Part shown: positions 1 through 48,494 of the stretch, piece by piece | Position numbering within the stretch: the first letter of the stretch is position 1 | How the letters are laid out: every line of letters begins with the position of its first letter | Assembly (NCBI RefSeq): GCF_027923765.1 | Contig: NZ_AP026709.1 | Location: 2,041,501-2,105,500 of the forward strand | Direction of reading: 5' to 3' | Length of the DNA stretch: 64,000 nucleotides | From: Pseudodesulfovibrio nedwellii | GTDB lineage: Bacteria; Desulfobacterota; Desulfovibrionia; Desulfovibrionales; Desulfovibrionaceae | Program-made: the position numbers and the translations under genes | The notes under the pieces: model-generated | What the model saw: the letters and a program-made list of their open reading frames with translations, nothing else | Database searches by the model: none | Told to the model about the DNA's origin: nothing

Positions 1-1063
1 CGAACACGGTCTTCACACTAGGGCTAATATAAATAAAATGCCCGTTATCATCGGTGATAAACACGGCATCCGAAATACTAGCCAGAGTGATACGATGCAA
101 TGCCTCGGAGTGTTGCAACGCTTCAACCCATTGACGATAATCAGTTATATTTCGATAGCTTACCACCATACCGATAGGCACGCCATCTGAATTCTTGAGT
201 TTGGTAGCCGTGAGCGAACAGGGAACAGTTTTGCCTGAAGCATCCCGACAGTCTGTTTCATAGTCGGCCCGATCTCGTCCCATGAGTCGGGTCGAAGCCA
301 TGCAGTGAACGCCATCACATCCATGACAGGGAAATACTTCAAAACACTTCTTGCTCTCGATATCGTCATGGCCGTGGCCGGACAGTTCGGAAAAGGCACG
401 GTTGATCTTGAGAATATTCTTCTTGTTATCCGTAACGATCAGTCCATCTACCGAAGTCTCGAAAACTTGACTGAGTTCCATGTCAGCCCGTTCGAGATCA
501 TCCTCAACCTGCGTCCGATAGAAACGCTCATCCTTGAGTGCGTCATGCGAAGATTTCAATTCCTCCGTGCGTTTCTCAATGATCCCTTCCATCCGATCAT
601 ACAGGATGGTGCGTTTACGCTCGCGGCGTAAATCTTCGGTAATATCACGAATGGTCGCGACAACATATTGCTCATTATTGATGGCCACGGCCTTGAGTGA
701 CACTTCCGTATCAATGAGCGTGCCGTCCCCTTGTTTGTCCTTCCAAAAAAAACGTTGAGGGGTTCCCTCGGCTGCGGCCCGTATTTTTTCCTGCGCCATG
801 AGGTAAGAATCGCGACCATTGGGCTGTTTTTCCGGGGCGAATTCTGCCGGAGAACGGCCAAGAATCTGTCCCTTGTCTGCCTTCCAAATGCGACACGCAC
901 TTTTGTTACAATCAAAAAAAGTATCTTGCAGAATGAGAATGCCATCGGACATGGCATCAAGCACACCCTGATATTTGCCCAGTTCCGACTCTAGCTCTGC
1001 GATGCGTGTTTGCTGCGCCTCGATAATCGCCTGCGACTTCGTCGCGTTGGTTGCCGTATCCAT
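1..1063 (-). CDS. Multi-PAS sensor protein, C-terminus beyond window
   Basis: The frame is open from an ATG at 1063 to the window edge (354 codons), so the output domain is missing; a histidine kinase or diguanylate cyclase/EAL end are all possible. A GGAGG lies just before the ATG. Residues about 28-140 and 190-305 read as PAS domains and a third starts near 315, with a charged helical linker (about 145-185) between the first two. The second PAS has a cysteine cluster, CFEVFPCHGCDGVHC, near residues 237-257, which resembles the one in the activator at 8235 and may bind metal or respond to redox (inference). It is divergent from the aminotransferase at 1262. The protein is probably cytoplasmic: no membrane segment is visible in the part present. 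Confidence 0.75.
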   Translation of the reverse strand, partial: MDTATNATKSQAIIEAQQTRIAELESELGKYQGVLDAMSDGILILQDTFFDCNKSACRIWKADKGQILGRSPAEFAPEKQPNGRDSYLMAQEKIRAAAEGTPQRFFWKDKQGDGTLIDTEVSLKAVAINNEQYVVATIRDITEDLRRERKRTILYDRMEGIIEKRTEELKSSHDALKDERFYRTQVEDDLERADMELSQVFETSVDGLIVTDNKKNILKINRAFSELSGHGHDDIESKKCFEVFPCHGCDGVHCMASTRLMGRDRADYETDCRDASGKTVPCSLTATKLKNSDGVPIGMVVSYRNITDYRQWVEALQHSEALHRITLASISDAVFITDDNGHFIYISPSVKTVF

Positions 1064-1261
1064 GCGCCCCTCCAAAGGTGGGTTCGACTCTTTGTTCCCC
1101 ACTTAGCCCTGATTCGAAATCGACGCAAGGCAGCGATCGAAATGGCAACACATCGAAATATAAGAAGGAAAACAAACAGGGTCTGTTCACTGTCTCATTG
1201 TCTTGCGAGCGGAACTTCTTTCCCTTACAGTGACCTTTCACTCGATAAAAAGGAGACACAA

Positions 1262-2452
1262 ATGCAACTGATCTCATCCCAAATATCCGGCTACATGAAG
1301 CGGTCCTCATGGATTCGCAAAATGTTTGAGGAAGGTATTGCCCTGAAAAAGGAATTCGGTGAAGACGCTGTCTGCGACTTCAGCTTAGGAAACCCCGACC
1401 TGCCGCCGCCTGCCGCCATCAAAGATGCCTTGGTCGGGCTGGCCGAACAGGCAGACAAGCCTTTCTTCATGGGCTACATGCCTAACTTTGGTTACCCCGA
1501 CGTTCGTCAACGGCTGGCTGAAGAAGTGAGCAAGGAGCAAGGCGTGGACGTTCCCGCTGACAGCTTGATCATCACCTGTGGCGCAGCCGGTGCGCTCAAC
1601 TCATTTTTCCGTGCCGTGCTGGAACCGGGCGATGAAGTCATGTCCCCGGCACCATTCTTTGTTGAGTATGGTTTCTATTGTGAAAATTACGGTGCTTCTC
1701 TGGTCCCGGTCCCGGCCAAACCCCTGACCTTTGAACTGGACCTTGATGCAATGGACGCCGCCATTACGGACAAAACCCGCGTGGTACTCATCAACTCACC
1801 CAACAACCCTACAGGTGCGGTCTACTCCCGCAAAGAGCTCGACGGCCTGGCCGCCATTCTTCACAAGCACAATGAAGGCCGCGACAAACCGATCTTCATC
1901 CTGTCTGACGAGCCTTACCGCTTTCTCGCCTTTGACGGCGTGGAAGTCCCGAGCATGTTGGACGTCTATCCGTACTCGGTTGTCTGCTCCTCCTTCTCCA
2001 AAAACCTGTCCATGGCTGGTGAACGCATCGGCTATGCACTGGTCAATCCGGCCATGAAGGACAAGGATATGCTCGTCGGCGGCATCGTCCTTGCGAACCG
2101 CATCCTCGGTTTCGTCAACGCCCCGGCACTGGCCCAAAAGATTCTCGGCAAAGCGCTGGGAAGCTCCGTGGACACCTCGATCTACGACGACCGCCGCAAG
2201 GCCATGGCCTCAGTCCTGGACAACGCGGGATGTGAGTACACCATGCCCAAAGGTGCTTTCTACTTCTTCCCCAAAGCTCCGGGCGGAGATGACATCGAGT
2301 TTTGCGCCGCCTTGCAGAAAGAAAAAATCCTAGCTGTTCCCGGCACCGGCTTCGGCTGCCCCGGCTACATCAGACTCGCCTTTTGCGTAGGCGAAGATGT
2401 CATCCTGCGAGCCACAGAAGGCTTTGCCCGAACCATGGAAAAATACAAATAG
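1262..2452 (+). CDS. PLP-dependent class I/II aminotransferase
   Basis: A 396-residue fold-type I aminotransferase, the usual length for the aspartate aminotransferase superfamily. The visible hallmarks are the INSPNNPTGAVYS segment, the SDEPYR segment with the PLP-contacting Asp and Tyr, and SSFSKNLSMAGERIGY with the Schiff-base lysine at about residue 247. The C-terminal FCVGEDVI carries no substrate-specific clue. The start at 1262 follows AAAAGGAG at ideal spacing; an in-frame upstream extension lacks a ribosome site. It is single-gene: a sensor diverges upstream and a strong terminator follows directly. Substrate (aspartate, alanine or an aromatic amino acid) cannot be told from sequence alone. 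Confidence 0.9.
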   Translation: MQLISSQISGYMKRSSWIRKMFEEGIALKKEFGEDAVCDFSLGNPDLPPPAAIKDALVGLAEQADKPFFMGYMPNFGYPDVRQRLAEEVSKEQGVDVPADSLIITCGAAGALNSFFRAVLEPGDEVMSPAPFFVEYGFYCENYGASLVPVPAKPLTFELDLDAMDAAITDKTRVVLINSPNNPTGAVYSRKELDGLAAILHKHNEGRDKPIFILSDEPYRFLAFDGVEVPSMLDVYPYSVVCSSFSKNLSMAGERIGYALVNPAMKDKDMLVGGIVLANRILGFVNAPALAQKILGKALGSSVDTSIYDDRRKAMASVLDNAGCEYTMPKGAFYFFPKAPGGDDIEFCAALQKEKILAVPGTGFGCPGYIRLAFCVGEDVILRATEGFARTMEKYK

Positions 2453-2476
2453 CCTCACATACTCATACACACCCAA

Positions 2477-2504
2477 AAGGGCTGCTCTCGGGCAGCCCTT
2501 TTTT
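2477..2504 (+). terminator. Rho-independent terminator of the aminotransferase
   Basis: Nine-base-pair stem AAGGGCTGC / GCAGCCCTT with a six-base loop and a run of T, 24 bases after the aminotransferase stop codon. Confidence 0.9.
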
Positions 2505-2565
2505 CATTTCAACGAGTTAAAAAATTTTGTCTGCATCGCTGATGTTCTTGAAGAAGTTAAAATTC

Positions 2566-2584
2566 TTGTACCCGTACGGGACAA
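2566..2584. promoter_or_regulatory. Palindrome, candidate activator site
   Basis: TTGTACCCGTACGGGACAA is a near-perfect 19-base inverted repeat around CCCGTACGGG. It is centred about 120 bases upstream of the start predicted for the sigma-54-type promoter at 2670, which is the usual place for an enhancer-binding site. Its regulator is unknown. Confidence 0.35.
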
Positions 2585-2595
2585 AACAACCTTTC

Positions 2596-2621
2596 AAGGA
2601 GACAAAAACACTATGAAGTAA
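2596..2621 (+). other. Ribosome site followed by a two-codon reading frame
   Basis: AAGGAG at 2596 is followed eleven bases later by ATG AAG TAA (2613-2621). It may be a chance match, a relic of a lost gene or a minimal start-stop element. A 24-codon frame starting at 2542 runs through the same bases without its own ribosome site. No function is claimed. Confidence 0.2.
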
Positions 2622-2669
2622 CCACCTGTTTTCGTTGGGCTTAAAAAATATATTTACGATGTAAAAAAG

Positions 2670-2687
2670 TTTGGCACGCCACATGCT
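2670..2687 (+). promoter_or_regulatory. Sigma-54 type -24/-12 promoter
   Basis: TTTGGCACGCCACATGCT matches the sigma-54 consensus (TTGGCACG, four bases, TTGC, A/T) with one mismatch, and GG and GC are exactly ten bases apart. The predicted start is near 2698. No gene on the + strand follows; the next + strand element is a terminator at 2728, so the product would be a transcript of about 50 bases. Confidence 0.55.
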
Positions 2688-2697
2688 ATAAAGAAAA

Positions 2698-2752
2698 CAT
2701 CTTCCTTTTTTGCACTGAGAAAACAACAAGCCTCCGCAAGGAGGCTTTTCTC
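2698..2752 (+). ncRNA. Candidate sigma-54-driven small RNA
   Basis: The interval runs from the start predicted from the -24/-12 promoter to the end of a GC-rich hairpin with a T tail. The transcript would begin with a CTTCCTTTTTT stretch (2701-2711), complementary to purine-rich ribosome sites, followed by an A-rich single strand and the terminator. The layout (upstream palindrome, sigma-54 promoter, short transcript, terminator) recalls Vibrio Qrr RNAs, which are known to be sigma-54-dependent; no sequence relation to them is claimed. Expression is unproven. Confidence 0.35.
2728..2752. terminator. Hairpin terminator, probably bidirectional
   Basis: AAGCCTCC / GGAGGCTT with a GCAA loop and TTTTC on the + side. 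On the - strand it follows the binding-protein gene that ends at 2790 and has a T-rich tail there too. Confidence 0.8.
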
Positions 2753-2789
2753 ATTTCTGGAAGGGGATATTCCCCATAGTGAAGAGGCG

Positions 2790-3548
2790 CTATTCAAACA
2801 TACGCCAGTATTTATCCACGATGGCATCCAGTTGCCCTTCTGCTCGAATCTCCAAAAAGGCCTTTCGCACACGTTCCACGACTGCATCAGAAGTTTCATT
2901 GCCAAACGCCATATAAAAATCCTCGGTAAAAAGCGGCACTCGGGGAACCCAGTAGTCAGAAGGCTGTCCAGACTGCTTAAGCCAATGGGCCAGCGACAGC
3001 TTATCTCCGGTTGTCAGGTCTATACGCCCGACGTTCTGGGAAGATTTCAAATTATTCTGTTGCTCACAGTTAACGGGAAAAAGATTGACCCCGTCCTGAA
3101 ATCCCTGGGAAAGCAAAAAATGATGTGTGGAAGTTTCACGGGTTACACCGACCCGATATTTCTTGGCCTCGTCCAAAGTGGAAATAGCTATATCTCTACG
3201 ATGCTTCGGACTGAACAAATACATGTCAATAGACAGCCCTTCAACCTTGATCCATTTGAAATGCGGTTCTCTGCTCGGCAGTTTGAAAATAGAATAAATA
3301 AGGACATTCTTATGAGTTTGAGCCATGTCATACGCACGAGCCCAAGGGTATATATCAATAGAGTACTCAAATCCGGCTCGGTCCAGCGTGGCCCGGACAA
3401 CGTCTGTCACCACGCCGCCCACTCCTTCACAGACTTTCTGATTATAGGGCGGCCATTCTTCAGTAACGACTTTTATACTCTCGCTTGAAGCTGTTACCGC
3501 TTGCACCAAGACAAGAACAACAGCGAACAAAAAACCACGCACACCCAT
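2790..3548 (-). CDS. Periplasmic solute-binding protein family 3-like
   Basis: A 252-residue secreted protein. A signal peptide (residues 1 to about 22) ends in TASSES. The body reads as an SBP_bac_3 domain: KVVTEEWPPYNQ at the start of the mature chain, GGVVTDVVRATLDRAG, the WARAYD segment and the closing IVDKYWRMFE. Stand-alone proteins of this type are common in Desulfovibrio and Vibrio-like genomes, and many have no transporter nearby; none is seen here. It may bind an amino acid or act as a sensor input. The start at 3548 has AAGGGG upstream. A hairpin at 2728-2752 ends it. Confidence 0.85.
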   Translation of the reverse strand: MGVRGFLFAVVLVLVQAVTASSESIKVVTEEWPPYNQKVCEGVGGVVTDVVRATLDRAGFEYSIDIYPWARAYDMAQTHKNVLIYSIFKLPSREPHFKWIKVEGLSIDMYLFSPKHRRDIAISTLDEAKKYRVGVTRETSTHHFLLSQGFQDGVNLFPVNCEQQNNLKSSQNVGRIDLTTGDKLSLAHWLKQSGQPSDYWVPRVPLFTEDFYMAFGNETSDAVVERVRKAFLEIRAEGQLDAIVDKYWRMFE

Positions 3549-3660
3549 TTTTTCCCCTTTTCACTCACACGCCGATAAGTCCCGCCAAAACAATTCACTC
3601 TTATCATTTCCTACACAGAAACTCTCATAATATGCAACATCTTAGAAAAAGTTGGGAATA

Positions 3661-3691
3661 AAAAAGCCGGTCGGGATTTCCCCGGCCGGCT
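3661..3691 (-). terminator. Terminator of ilvD
   Basis: Stem AGCCGG-T-CGGG paired with CCCG-G-CCGGCT, followed on the - strand by a T run; it sits 23 bases past the ilvD stop codon. Confidence 0.85.
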
Positions 3692-3713
3692 ATACAGATT
3701 TTTCTATTATTGA

Positions 3714-5375
3714 TTATTTTTCGTACACCGCACCACGTGAAGCTGAAGTGACCAATTTTGCATAACGACGCAGAAATGGGGACTTCACTTCCTTGATCAC
3801 AGGCACATGAATTTTCCGTCGCTCTTCCAGTTCCTCATCGTCCACCAGCAGATGAATTTTCCGTGCCGGAATATCAATCTCAATCTGGTCGCCATTCTGG
3901 ATCAAACAACATGGGCCGCCAGCTGCTGCTTCGGGCGAAATATGCCCGATAGCTGCGCCGCGTGTGCCACCAGAAAAACGGCCATCGGTCAATAGAGCCA
4001 CGGACTCGCCCAACCCCATGCCGGAAATAGCCGAGGTGGGGGTGAGCATTTCACGCATACCAGGCCCGCCCTTGGGACCCTCATACAGCACGACCACCAC
4101 GTCACCGGACACGATTTTGCCACCAAGAATGGCTTCAACCGCATCTTCTTCTGTCGTATATACCTTGGCTACTCCAGTATTCTGCATCATCTCTGGAGCC
4201 ACGGCAGACTGTTTCACACAGCATCCTTCAGGCGCGATGTTGCCGTACAAGATGGCGATACCGCCCTCTTCCGAATACGGATTATCAATGGGCCGGACGA
4301 TTTCATTATTCGTAACCCTGGCGTCCAGATCCTTGAGGTTTTCACCCAGCGTTTTACCCGTAACAGTCATAACATCAAGATTAAGCAAATCTCGTTTGAC
4401 CAGTTCGGACATCACGCCGGGAATACCACCTGACTCGTTCAGATCTTCCATAAAATGAGGGCCAGCAGGGGACAACTTGCACAGGTTCGGTGTCTTTTTG
4501 CTGATCTCATTGAACATTTCAAGATTCAAATCAAGACCGGCCTCGGCAAACAGTGCGGGCAGATGTAACGTGGTATTGGTGGAACAGCCCAGAGCCATAT
4601 CCATTGTCACGGCGTTATGCACGGCTTTCTCGGTGACGATATCACGCGGCTTGATGTCACGTTCCAGCATTTCCATAACTTGCATACCGGCCTGCTTAGC
4701 CAGCCGTACACGGGCGGACATGACAGCCGGGATAGTACCGTTGCCGGGCAGGGCCAGCCCGATGGACTCGGACAGACAGTTCATGGAGTTGGCCGTGAAC
4801 ATGCCCGCGCATGAACCGCAGGTCGGGCAGGCGGACTGTTCAAATTCAGTCAGTTCCTCTTCAGTCATGGTGCCAGCCTTGACCTTGCCCACGCCTTCAA
4901 AAACATTAATCAGGTCAGCAGTCTTCTTCCGGCCTGCCAGCATGGGGCCACCAGACACGACAACCGCTGGAATATTCAGTCGCAGGATAGCCATGAGCAT
5001 ACCCGGCACGATCTTGTCGCAGTTAGGAATACACACGATCGCGTCAAAGGGATGGGCGGTCGCCATGATCTCCACGGAGTCGGCAATTATTTCGCGGCTC
5101 GGCAGGGACATTTTCATGCCCTCATGGTTCATTGCCAGTCCGTCACACACCCCTATAGCCGGGAATTCCATGGGGGTACCGCCTGCCAGCATGATGCCTC
5201 TTTTCACGGCTTCGGTAATGGTATCTAGGTGTACATGACCGGGAATAATCTCATTGGCTGCGTTACATACGCCAATCAACGGCCTGTCCATTTCTTCCTT
5301 GGACATCCCGGTCGCATACAGCAGCGAGCGGTGCGGGGCCTTTTCCAATCCACCAGTCATTTTTTTACTACGCAT
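3714..5375 (-). CDS. ilvD: Dihydroxy-acid dehydratase
   Basis: A 553-residue IlvD, the normal family length. It dehydrates 2,3-dihydroxy-isovalerate and dihydroxy-methylvalerate in the third step of valine and isoleucine synthesis. Family segments visible are [11 protein letters not shown] near the N-terminus, the cluster-ligand segments [11 protein letters not shown] and [17 protein letters not shown], and [16 protein letters not shown] with [13 protein letters not shown] in the C-terminal part. The iron-sulfur cluster should make it oxygen-sensitive, as in the family. The start follows AGGAG. It is transcribed alone, with a terminator behind it and a repeat-rich gap in front; no other ilv gene is in the window. 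Confidence 0.97.
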
Positions 5376-5493
5376 TAGATACTCCTCTAAATAAAAATTC
5401 GGATGGACAGTTCACACCGGATAGGGGGCCGATGTCAATGGTTTTGCCTTGTGAGGCCTCCGGCAGGCCTACCGGCGGTCGCCTTCAGCGGGA

Positions 5494-5523
5494 CCAGAGA
5501 ACCTTTTTAAAAAGGTTCTCTGG
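5494..5523. repeat. Perfect 30-base palindrome
   Basis: CCAGAGAACCTTTTT followed directly by its reverse complement. The palindrome at 63330-63357 has the same GAACC(C)TTT core and also lies beside a GCCTCCGGC-type module, so both belong to one repeat family. Confidence 0.85.
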
Positions 5524-5659
5524 ACTCTCCAAAACTTTCTGTATCGCTTCGCGAGGGGGGGGGATAAACGAAAAAAATTCTCAACCATTCTTAAACATGG
5601 AGTGCTTTGGGGTGCGCCAGCACCCCAACAACGCCTTTCCTCCCCCCGACAGTATGAGG

Positions 5660-5776
5660 CTTGGGAGAGTGGTGCAGATGTGCATTTTCTCGGGCCAAAT
5701 CGACCGCAGGCGTAGCCCGGCTACGTTGAGGATTGATTTACGCCCGAAAAATGTGCAGATGCGCAGCTCTCCCAAG
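5660..5776. repeat. 117-base long imperfect hairpin
   Basis: The outer arms are CTTGGGAGAG (5660-5669) and CTCTCCCAAG (5767-5776). The strands continue to pair through GTGCA..GTGCATTTTCTCGGGC on one side and GCCCGAAAAATGTGCA on the other, and end in CGTAGCC-C-GGCTACG at the tip (5711-5725). The frame across it on the - strand is an artefact of the inverted repeat. It could act as a structured RNA or DNA element. Confidence 0.75.
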
Positions 5777-5783
5777 CCGTGTC

Positions 5784-5821
5784 ACAAGAAAAAGGCCCCG
5801 ACTAGGAGATAGCGGGGCCTT
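5784..5821 (-). terminator. Terminator of ribB
   Basis: Stem AAGGCCCCG / CGGGGCCTT with a T run on the - strand, 45 bases beyond the ribB stop. Confidence 0.88.
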
Positions 5822-5865
5822 GGAGGAGCACATATTTTGTTTGTCGGTTATCGTACCTTCAGACG

Positions 5866-6522
5866 TTAGGCGGCCTCGCTCTTGCGGGCTTTGCGGTATT
5901 CCACGATATCGTCCACGGTGCAGACGGGCATATTGTGTTTCTTGCCAAAGTCGATAATTTCCGGGGTTCGGGCCATGGTGCCGTCAGGATTAGTGACTTC
6001 ACAAAGGACACCGCACGGCTCTAGACCGGCCAGACGTGTCATGTCCACTGTGGCTTCAGTATGACCGCCACGTTCAAGCACTCCGCCGGGACGGGCGCGG
6101 AGCGGAAAGACATGGCCGGGACTGGCGATATCCGCAGGCGTAGCGTTTCCGGCAATAGCCGTCTTAACGGTGGTCACACGGTCAACCGCTGATACGCCAG
6201 TGGTGACACCTGTGGCCGCCTCAATGGAAATGGTGAACGCGGTCTGATACTGGCTGCTGTTTTCATCAACCATCATGGGCAGTTCAAGGGACCGGATTTT
6301 TTCATCGGTCAAGCAAAGACAGACAATACCGCTACATTCGCGAATGAGCATAGCCATCTGATCGTCAGTAAGGGTTTCGGCGGCGAAGATAAGATCGCCT
6401 TCGTTTTCACGACCTTCGTTGTCCGTGACAAGAATGCCACGACCTTCACGGAGTGCCGTGAGTGCGTTCTCGACCCGCTGAATAGGATCGCCGAACTGAT
6501 TAAGTAGAGACTGATTCATCAT
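5866..6522 (-). CDS. ribB: 3,4-dihydroxy-2-butanone 4-phosphate synthase
   Basis: A 218-residue monofunctional RibB, which converts ribulose 5-phosphate to the four-carbon unit of riboflavin. It reads closely like the enterobacterial enzyme: [18 protein letters not shown] (acidic Mg-binding and active-site loop), GIVCLCLT, the [24 protein letters not shown] stretch (6-residue GGHTEA core) and [15 protein letters not shown]. No GTP cyclohydrolase II domain is fused. Two ATGs lie in tandem (6522 and 6519); the second, giving [10 protein letters not shown], has better spacing to AGGAG and matches the usual family start. Expression should be controlled by the FMN riboswitch in its leader. Confidence 0.97.
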
Positions 6523-8234: not shown

Positions 8235-9560
8235 ATGTCATTTCCAGCCAATCTCCCCCTTGAAGACGTTTTCGCCTCCATTGCAGACGGTCTGTTCACC
8301 GTAGATACAGACTGGAACATTACTTATTTTAATGAGGCAGCCCAACGCATCACTGGCATCAATCAGGATGAAGCGGTCGGATGCAAATGCTGGGACGTCT
8401 TTCGTTCTTCGCTGTGTGACGGCAATTGTGCCATCGGCCAATGTATGAAAGCCGGTGGTCGCATTGTCAACAAGTCCATTTTCATCGTCCGCAACGACGG
8501 CACCACCCTGCCCATATCCATTTCCGCATCCACATTGCGTGACAGCGAAGGCCAAATGATCGGCGGCGTCGAAACCTTCCGCGACCTGACAGAAATCCAT
8601 GTCAAACGTCAGCAAGCCAAGGATGTTTACCGATATGAAAATATCGTTGGACGCAGTCAGCCCTTGGAAAAGATATTCCGCATCCTGCCCCGCATCAGTG
8701 AAAGCGAAGCAACCACGCTGCTTCTCGGCCAATCAGGTACTGGCAAAGAATTGTTTGCTCGAGCCATCCATAATTTAAGCCCACGCAAAGACAACCCATT
8801 TGTGCCTGTAAACTGTGGTGCACTGCCGGACACACTGCTTGAATCCGAACTGTTCGGATATAAAAAAGGCGCATTTACGGACGCTCGCACAGACAAGCCT
8901 GGACGTTTTGAAATGGCGGACGGTGGCACTGTCTTCCTTGATGAAATCGGCGACATGCCGGGAAAACTCCAGGTCAAACTCCTCCGTTTCCTGCAAGATA
9001 AAATGTACGAACCACTCGGAGGCGTCGCACCAATCCATGCCGATGTGCGTGTTATCGCCGCGACGAACAAAGACCTGGAGCAGGCCGTTGCAGACGGCAG
9101 TTTCCGGCAAGACTTGTTCTACCGACTCAATGTGGTCACTTTGACCCTGCCGCCACTCAAGGAACGCCACGAAGACCTCCCCCTGCTCATCGACCACTTC
9201 CTTGGTGAATTCAATGCGATACAGGGCAAGTCCATTCAGGGCGTCAGCGAAGACACCCTGCACATTCTGCTGCATCACGAATTCCCCGGCAATGTTCGCG
9301 AGTTGGAAAACATCCTTGAATACGCATTTATTCTCTGCCGCGAAGGACTCATTCAGGTTGAACATCTGCCGGAATATCTACACCCAGACAACCATGACAT
9401 CCACGGCCCTGATCCTTTGCGCGGCTCCATGAATGAAATCAAACGTCGAGCGGCAAGACATGCCGTGGAACGCAACAACGGTAAAAAAATGGCCGCCTGC
9501 CGTGAACTGGGTATTACCAAAGACACTCTGCGCAAAATGCTCACCGAGCCAGAGGGCTAA
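8235..9560 (+). CDS. PAS-domain sigma-54 activator, likely Orange Protein regulator
   Basis: A 441-residue enhancer-binding protein. The PAS domain is at residues 5-125 with cysteines at 50, 52, 61, 65 and 70, a possible metal or redox site (inference). The AAA+ domain is at about 135-365, with Walker A GQSGTGKE (165-172), Walker B GGTVFLDEIGD and the sigma-54 contact loop as GAFTDA (212-217), not GAFTGA. A Fis-type helix-turn-helix, AACRELGITKDTLRKML, closes the protein. There is no receiver domain, so it senses directly. In D. vulgaris an activator of this kind controls the adjacent Orange Protein operons. Here the next gene has a sigma-54 promoter, which fits that role. The ribosome site is weak. 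Confidence 0.9.
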   Translation: MSFPANLPLEDVFASIADGLFTVDTDWNITYFNEAAQRITGINQDEAVGCKCWDVFRSSLCDGNCAIGQCMKAGGRIVNKSIFIVRNDGTTLPISISASTLRDSEGQMIGGVETFRDLTEIHVKRQQAKDVYRYENIVGRSQPLEKIFRILPRISESEATTLLLGQSGTGKELFARAIHNLSPRKDNPFVPVNCGALPDTLLESELFGYKKGAFTDARTDKPGRFEMADGGTVFLDEIGDMPGKLQVKLLRFLQDKMYEPLGGVAPIHADVRVIAATNKDLEQAVADGSFRQDLFYRLNVVTLTLPPLKERHEDLPLLIDHFLGEFNAIQGKSIQGVSEDTLHILLHHEFPGNVRELENILEYAFILCREGLIQVEHLPEYLHPDNHDIHGPDPLRGSMNEIKRRAARHAVERNNGKKMAACRELGITKDTLRKMLTEPEG

Positions 9561-9655: not shown

Positions 9656-9671
9656 TGGCATGCTCTATGCT
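9656..9671 (+). promoter_or_regulatory. Sigma-54 type promoter of the NifX-like/Mrp genes
   Basis: TGGCATGCTCTATGCT has the invariant GG and GC ten bases apart. It is a moderate match to the consensus (TGGCA present, TTGC as ATGC). The predicted start near 9682 leaves a leader of about 40 bases before the ATG at 9722, and the gene for a sigma-54 activator lies directly upstream. Confidence 0.6.
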
Positions 9672-48310: not shown

Positions 48311-48494
48311 TGGACACCTGTACCCTCTGCATCGTTGCAATGGCAAGACTCTCCGCCGTGATTCCCTGCGCTGACATGGCATCGTGACAAACCACCCTCC
48401 TTTTCCTCAAGTCGGAATATGTTGGGACCCAACATATCGCACACGCATAAGACCCTAAAGGGACTCATTCCTTCATGGCTGGCACATTTCAGCA

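Follow-up and report, generated by a model that had tools for sequence, protein, structure and literature searches.

The locus described here lies near the start of a 64-kb stretch of the Pseudodesulfovibrio nedwellii genome, the whole of which (64,000 nucleotides) we call the window. On the + strand, at 2670-2687, it carries a sigma-54-type -24/-12 promoter, TTTGGCACGCCACATGCT, recognised by sequence match and conservation, in which the GG at 2673-2674 occupies -25/-24 and the GC at 2685-2686 occupies -13/-12, with ten bases between them, placing +1 at about 2698. This is the near-consensus element that an earlier sequence-only reading of the DNA had pointed out. The next called gene, encoding a substrate-binding protein at 2790-3548, is convergent, and to that extent the same reading was right that no + strand gene follows; a mechanical + strand frame at 2832-3488 does overlap the called gene, but the codon-based gene caller did not pick it. 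The strict pattern TGGCAYRN5TGCW is found twice in the 64-kb window against 0.36 matches expected, and 5 of 100 shuffled sequences also reach two. Since chance could give such a match, the promoter by itself is only suggestive, and the case rests on comparative evidence. The second strict match, TGGCATGCTCTATGCT, lies at 9656-9671 on the + strand, just 3' of a PAS-type sigma-54 activator gene (8235-9560) that is preceded by two frames which we take to be hypA and hypB.

From the promoter at 2670-2687 we predict a small RNA (sRNA) of about 59 nt at 2698-2756 on the + strand, a class I copy, both ends being predictions. It is matched by R1, a covariance model of the transcript alone, without promoter, over 2696-2758 with 80.7 bits, the window sequence itself being among those used to build the model. 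The 5' end predicted from the -24/-12 spacing is CATCTTCC, and the RNA would consist of CATCTTCCTTTTTTGCAC, one hairpin and a short run of U, with its 3' end at about 2756. The terminator hairpin, at 2716-2753 (+), has an outer stem (2716-2722/2747-2753), an inner stem (2729-2735/2740-2746) and a GCAA loop (2736-2739); a GC hairpin at 2728-2747 thus sits inside the longer stem. In the predicted fold (-19 kcal/mol, z -4.1, none of 200 shuffles as stable) only this hairpin forms, leaving unpaired the arm CAUCUUCCUUUUUUGCAC at 2698-2715 (+), which was delimited by the fold, the alignment and a complement search and is complementary to a porin ribosome site. The terminator expected near 2750 was found, and a short transcript with its own terminator is indeed predicted, but its length is about 59 nt, counted from about 2698, and not the 50 or so bases first proposed.

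Alignment of 46 distinct transcripts gave a two-part hairpin in which 97.0% of the cells are paired and eight pairs have changed on both sides, a value that none of 500 shuffles reached, together with a 5' arm that is nearly invariant and CU-rich in all variants. The alignment omits three promoter-only loci before an apparent coding gene (L044, L047 and L048), L012, which is the same place as L033, and three identical transcripts. An invariant arm joined to a covarying hairpin is the pattern expected of a pairing arm plus a terminator. No Rfam family reached its gathering score over the sRNAs of six loci, and the matches within window positions 1-6000 were all sub-threshold and were taken as chance. 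One of them, over 2691-2754, is to the Phe leader (26.4 bits of a 55-bit cut-off, E 0.35); it lends a little colour to the idea that the element is the leader or attenuator of a downstream gene, as does the co-directional orientation of the next gene in some copies. We consider that idea very improbable, because the next gene is convergent in the window and the genes downstream differ between copies.

The unit of promoter, transcript and terminator is present in all 36 Pseudodesulfovibrio genomes, at different loci and mostly in several copies, so that the two elements whose joint conservation the sequence-only reading proposed to look for in relatives do travel together throughout the genus. 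A DNA search with window positions 2510-2790 produced matches in 32 of these 36 genomes, the matched part being mainly promoter plus transcript. Copies stand at unrelated loci, several per genome, with three in tandem in G019; two were found in the P. nedwellii genome, the second of which (at 3,677,973) has a longer hairpin and a promoter of its own. When the order was searched with R1, 43 of 247 genomes matched, 30 of them from the genus (29 with two to five matches each), no Pseudodesulfovibrio genome being listed without a match, and six further genus genomes also carry the sRNA (G003, G023, G027, G029, G030 and G024). In the family, 21 of 149 genomes matched; absences elsewhere are soft, since the filters of these searches are strict and only a few candidates are scored in each genome. 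Among the family-search matches outside the model's own alignment (27 in total, 26 inspected), 23 have a -24/-12 element at the expected place, recognised in some cases by visual reading of the sequence; the three that do not are among the weakest (E 0.003-0.009). Copies with a promoter also occur outside Pseudodesulfovibrio, in genera g13, g20, g22 and g28, and three matches outside the genus that have no promoter (L084, L086 and L088) were excluded from the counts.

This distribution bears directly on the simplest objection, namely that there is no functional sRNA here and that a chance -24/-12 site happens to precede the terminator of the convergent substrate-binding-protein gene, one that works in both directions. 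A window of this size should contain 0.36 strict promoter matches by chance, and the hairpin could also end the - strand gene; nevertheless, we find this account hardly credible, given that each of the 36 genomes keeps arm, promoter, enhancers and their spacing, with copies at unrelated loci and also in tandem.

To describe the control region, 72 copies, all different although some come from close relatives, were aligned on +1. A motif model drawn from them places two palindromic, putative enhancer sites upstream of the window copy: a distal site, UAS1, GTTAAAAAATTTTGTCT, at 2516-2532 (+, about -182, 24.5 bits), and a proximal site, UAS2, AGTTAAAATTCTTGTACC, at 2555-2572 (+, about -143, 26.3 bits), the palindromic consensus of the latter being about GGTnnAAAwwTTTGTACC. 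UAS2 is placed at -144 to -139 in 63 of the 72 copies, having been sought anywhere from -240 to about -103, and the UAS1-UAS2 spacing is 39-40 in 55 of 72, UAS1 having been sought only within 60 bp upstream of UAS2. Over the window and 30 loci of sigma-54 enhancer-binding proteins (EBPs), the pair occurs at one place only, 2516/2555. Between enhancers and promoter lies an IHF-like site, TAACCACCTGTTT, at 2619-2631 (+), with two mismatches to YAANNNNTTGATW in the window copy; its position (-79, or -79/-78 among the copies) is kept, and 23 of the 72 copies have at most one mismatch, compared with 5.0 in shuffled sequences. An A/T-rich block, TTAAAAAATATATTTA, at 2641-2656 (+), seen in the information profile of the 72 copies, separates this site from the promoter. 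An enhancer half followed by a -24/-12 element at 95-107 bp was matched 62 times in 33 of the 36 genomes, 58 of these matches being sRNA loci and four not, whereas the reversed pattern gave a single match; a stricter version of the pattern retrieves exactly the two sRNA genes from the P. nedwellii genome.

The 19-base palindrome first described at 2566-2584 is a different matter: an imperfect one does exist there (perfect core CCCGTACGGG, with TTGT/ACAA arms offset by one base), but it is not conserved, and a repeat search did not report 2566-2584 as an inverted repeat. It was rejected as the enhancer, since it decays in the nearest relatives and only its TTGTACC half overlaps UAS2 and belongs to the enhancer. 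Also set aside was a mini-ORF, ATG-AAG-TAA at 2613-2621, behind a good Shine-Dalgarno sequence (window 2594-2621); it is present in the same-species copy of G008 and absent in the next relatives, G033 and G032, and is probably a remnant or chance. Taken together, presence in all 36 genomes, a pair of enhancers whose distance is fixed, an IHF-like site and covariation in the RNA support a sigma-54-controlled regulatory RNA as the best explanation of the locus, in agreement with the earlier proposal.

RpoN was found in 34 of the 36 genus genomes, the two misses being genomes that are 81-82% complete. Neither of the classic RNA chaperones was detected in any of the 36: the Hfq model (PF17209), which matches 5 of 14 control genomes, E. 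coli included, and the ProQ model (PF04352), which matches one of the 14, E. coli, both gave no match. The failure to detect Hfq makes an Hfq-dependent mechanism of the Qrr type unlikely.

A candidate target emerged when the genus was searched for the arm's complement, with the pattern TGCAAAN{0,5}AAAGGAAG. It produced 86 matches in 33 of 36 genomes, compared with eight for the reversed pattern, and these divide into 59 sRNA loci (56 assigned by coordinates and three by reading and R1), 18 porin ribosome sites in 17 genomes, and nine scattered others, which are background at the level of the control. The porin gene encodes a product of 432-492 aa with an apparent signal peptide (18 genes). In P. 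nedwellii this protein matches NF033939 (DESULF_POR1, outer membrane homotrimeric porin) with 470 bits against a cut-off of 250, a Pfam search of the same protein giving no match; the other 17 are matched to it by tblastn at 46-92% identity. The gene is flanked, in P. nedwellii and in G013, by frames that we read as uvrC and hisD. At its ribosome site stands the arm complement UGCAAAAAAAGGAAGAU, of which AAAAAAGGAAGAT forms in P. nedwellii an uninterrupted 13-nt complement, to which GCA adds beyond a single bulged base. In the other 19 of the 36 genomes, among them species with the variant arm CATCCTTCTTTTGCAA, the exact complement pattern found no porin; for the variant arm TCCTTCTTTTGCAA, a porin target would predict the leader TTGCAAAAGAAGGA. 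Over 29 within-genome sRNA/porin pairs, formed from the retrieved sRNA copies only, the predicted duplex averages -22.1 kcal/mol, z is at or below -2.8 in 29 of 29, and in 28 of these pairs the arm outdoes every one of 100 shuffled arms. Being related by descent, the 18 porin leaders do not count as independent events. The pyrimidine-rich 5' start, read from the outset as complementary to ribosome sites, thus finds its counterpart at the porin.

The sigma-54 sRNA might nevertheless have its main business elsewhere, with a CU-rich arm acting on many ribosome sites, or with copies that differ in their targets, and with the porin match reflecting a strong, purine-rich ribosome site. The composition of the arm in every variant fits this, as do duplexes of -17.7 to -19.7 kcal/mol with rplI, purC (class II arm), the gene at 48382 and the neighbouring substrate-binding-protein gene. 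In P. nedwellii the class I arm gives -19.9 with the porin, -18.8 with the best of 46 window genes and -17.7 with rplI, and the class II arm gives -19.7 with purC, -18.4 with rplI and -15.9 with the porin, so that in this genome the porin does not stand out by duplex energy alone. On the other hand, over the 46 window genes the class I arm does no better than shuffled arms (-10.6 versus -10.7), which speaks against a general anti-Shine-Dalgarno action; the exact complement, which includes UGCAAA outside the Shine-Dalgarno sequence, recurs above background only at the porin; and the enhancer motif is common to porin and sRNA. We therefore judge such a broad or divergent target set unlikely. The preference of the P. 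nedwellii class II arm (noted with the L283 and L069 arms) for the purC and rplI leaders over the porin leader could be chance or a second target set. Genes beside the sRNA (substrate-binding protein, aminotransferase, ilvD, HD-domain and chemoreceptor clusters) were also considered as targets and rejected, their z values being scattered from -2.4 to +1.5.

Complementarity by itself leaves the sign of the regulation unfixed, and pairing could instead activate or stabilise the porin mRNA, or the porin leader could act as a sponge for the sRNA. The predicted leader is partly paired in one fragment, where the complement site has a mean unpaired probability of 0.4, which would suit these options; in another fragment, however, it is weakly structured and no more so than shuffled sequences (z +1.04), and the duplex would cover the Shine-Dalgarno sequence, which normally blocks initiation. 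These options seem to us less likely again than a broad target set, and by these predictions the porin site is not clearly open. Beyond the main duplex, a second block of pairing is suggestive: CACCGAG in the sRNA faces CUUGGU in the leader, and in G019 CACACGAG faces CUUGUG. It is an anecdote and not proof, because other genomes combine class II arms carrying CACACGAG with CUUGG leaders. The porin leaders also share a conserved AGGCGTTnACTTGG before the ribosome site (L245:1380-1520 and 17 homologous upstream regions), perhaps part of the pairing region or else the place where the transcript begins.

The enhancer model, learned from sRNA genes only, was then applied to the porin upstream regions. 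In a scan of 208,000 positions on both strands, covering the window and two 20-kb regions around porins, a score of 18 bits was reached at eight places: one is the window sRNA and the other seven fall in the two palindromes upstream of the porins. All 18 porin upstream regions score 20.5-24.6 bits, and none of 720 first-order Markov controls reaches 20. Measured from the start codon, the palindromes stand at about -149/-145 (a site that some regions lack or have in weak form) and -132/-128, upstream of what reads as a sigma-70-like promoter, and none of the 18 regions contains a TGGC-N9-GC site. The same motif at sRNA genes and porins indicates that one protein probably controls both the sRNA and its predicted target.

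The identity of that protein was approached through the EBP repertoire. The sigma-54 activator domain is matched 33 times in the P. nedwellii genome, strongly in 30 cases, and 11 of this genome's EBPs have reciprocal best matches in both G011 and G054, two sRNA-bearing genomes; this ortholog table is rough, as L105 is not among the extracted entries and at least one G054 entry (L204) is in the wrong frame. Two EBP genes adjoin sRNA copies, and neither is general. The PAS-type EBP beside the G093 copies was rejected as the activator, having no clear ortholog in G011 or G054; at E 1e-105 its best P. nedwellii match, L105, has no counterpart in 7 of the 10 sRNA-bearing genomes that were sampled from the genus. 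Also rejected was the response regulator beside the G021 copy, which has no clear ortholog in P. nedwellii. That G021 region (L129:10474-15500), directly 3' of a class II sRNA, comprises a histidine-kinase-like frame, an EBP response regulator and a second kinase-like frame; the C-terminal part of the regulator is 54% identical to a contig-end stretch in G109, which also bears the sRNA.

We propose that a sigma-54- and EBP-dependent sRNA blocks porin translation by base pairing and is wired together with the porin gene, a reading to which we give a probability of about 0.75, lowered from 0.78 on account of the purC and rplI values. An EBP would bind the two palindromic sites some 40 bp apart, near -182 and -143, and IHF-type bending would bring it to the sigma-54 polymerase at 2670-2687; the resulting RNA of about 59 nt would be ended by its own hairpin, and its unpaired 5' arm would pair with UGCAAAAAAAGGAAGAU at the ribosome-binding site of the DESULF_POR1 trimeric porin, without Hfq or ProQ, and block translation. 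The same EBP would also control porin transcription through the shared palindromes, forming a feed-forward switch of outer-membrane permeability; perhaps it represses the porin, which would make the switch coherent. Conservation, promoter and enhancer layout, RNA structure, complementarity and the shared motif are read in the DNA, and from them we infer transcription, repression, the signal and the activator. A wider version, in which a dedicated, multi-copy sRNA regulon silences a major porin throughout the genus without Hfq or ProQ, and one EBP acts on the sRNAs through sigma-54 and on the ordinary promoter of the porin through the shared palindromes, we put at barely better than even odds. 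If the proposal is right, sRNA porin silencing has been built here on a different sigma factor, with neither of the two classic RNA chaperones.

The proposed mode of action resembles that of the enterobacterial porin-silencing sRNAs MicF, MicC, OmrA/B and RybB, which likewise pair with mRNAs of outer-membrane proteins at the ribosome site or close to it. Those RNAs use Hfq and sigma-70 or sigma-E promoters; the Pseudodesulfovibrio sRNA also differs in having no Rfam match. The Vibrio Qrr RNAs have an enhancer motif that differs from the one described here. The Qrr analogy drawn in the sequence-only reading holds for promoter layout and copy number only: Pseudodesulfovibrio has no detected Hfq, a single hairpin, another target class and no Rfam family at cut-off. 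Qrr RNAs have in common with the Pseudodesulfovibrio sRNA a sigma-54 promoter with upstream enhancer, several similar copies and, on our prediction, pairing in trans (PMC10162802). The Alpha-r14/NfeR1 sRNAs of alphaproteobacteria are described as Hfq-independent silencers of translation with unpaired anti-SD motifs, a mode of action that we predict here too, and as having three hairpins bearing CCUCCUCCC motifs and control by LsrB/NtrC (PMC10746234). Unlike this alpha-r14/cuckoo group, the Pseudodesulfovibrio sRNA has one hairpin, a CUUCCUU(n)UUUGCA arm and a sigma-54-type promoter, and does not carry CCUCCUCCC motifs in several hairpins.

Closest in kind are the non-coding RNAs of a related sulfate reducer, D. 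vulgaris Hildenborough. In the accessible portions of two reports, the sigma-54 response regulator DVU0679 targets Dv_sRNA2 (Rajeev 2011, PMC3333781), and the sigma-54 regulome includes four non-coding RNAs, those of DVU0679, DVU0653, DVU1419 and DVU2359 (Kazakov 2015, PMC4641369), in which a sigma-54 promoter and EBP site likewise drive a non-coding RNA. The kind is thus already known; by the same portions, three of the four lie near their own regulator gene and one is discussed without a known function. The Pseudodesulfovibrio sRNA, compared by description and not by sequence, is multi-copy, mostly unlinked to an EBP gene and has a predicted porin target. What is new here is the predicted porin match, without Hfq or ProQ, in a sigma-54 non-coding RNA. 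A literature search found no report joining Pseudodesulfovibrio and sRNA and, judged by the titles listed, nothing on Desulfovibrio porin regulation by sRNA. Where these sources list sulfate-reducer sigma-54 non-coding RNAs without known targets, the sequence here names a target as well as a control site common to sRNA and target, so that function can be put to the test.

Two further elements were noted during the searches. Near-consensus -24/-12 sites in L044 (2481 region; P. nedwellii genome, 2,212,475), L047 and L048, from three genomes of which two belong to one species, lie immediately 5' of an apparent coding gene starting MIDAITVTLIIL. In addition, L231:809 (G027) and L233:831 (G016) share an element, distinct from the sRNA, that consists of TTGAACTTTTTTTCACAA, a weak -24/-12-like site and TGATTGATCGATCAATC.
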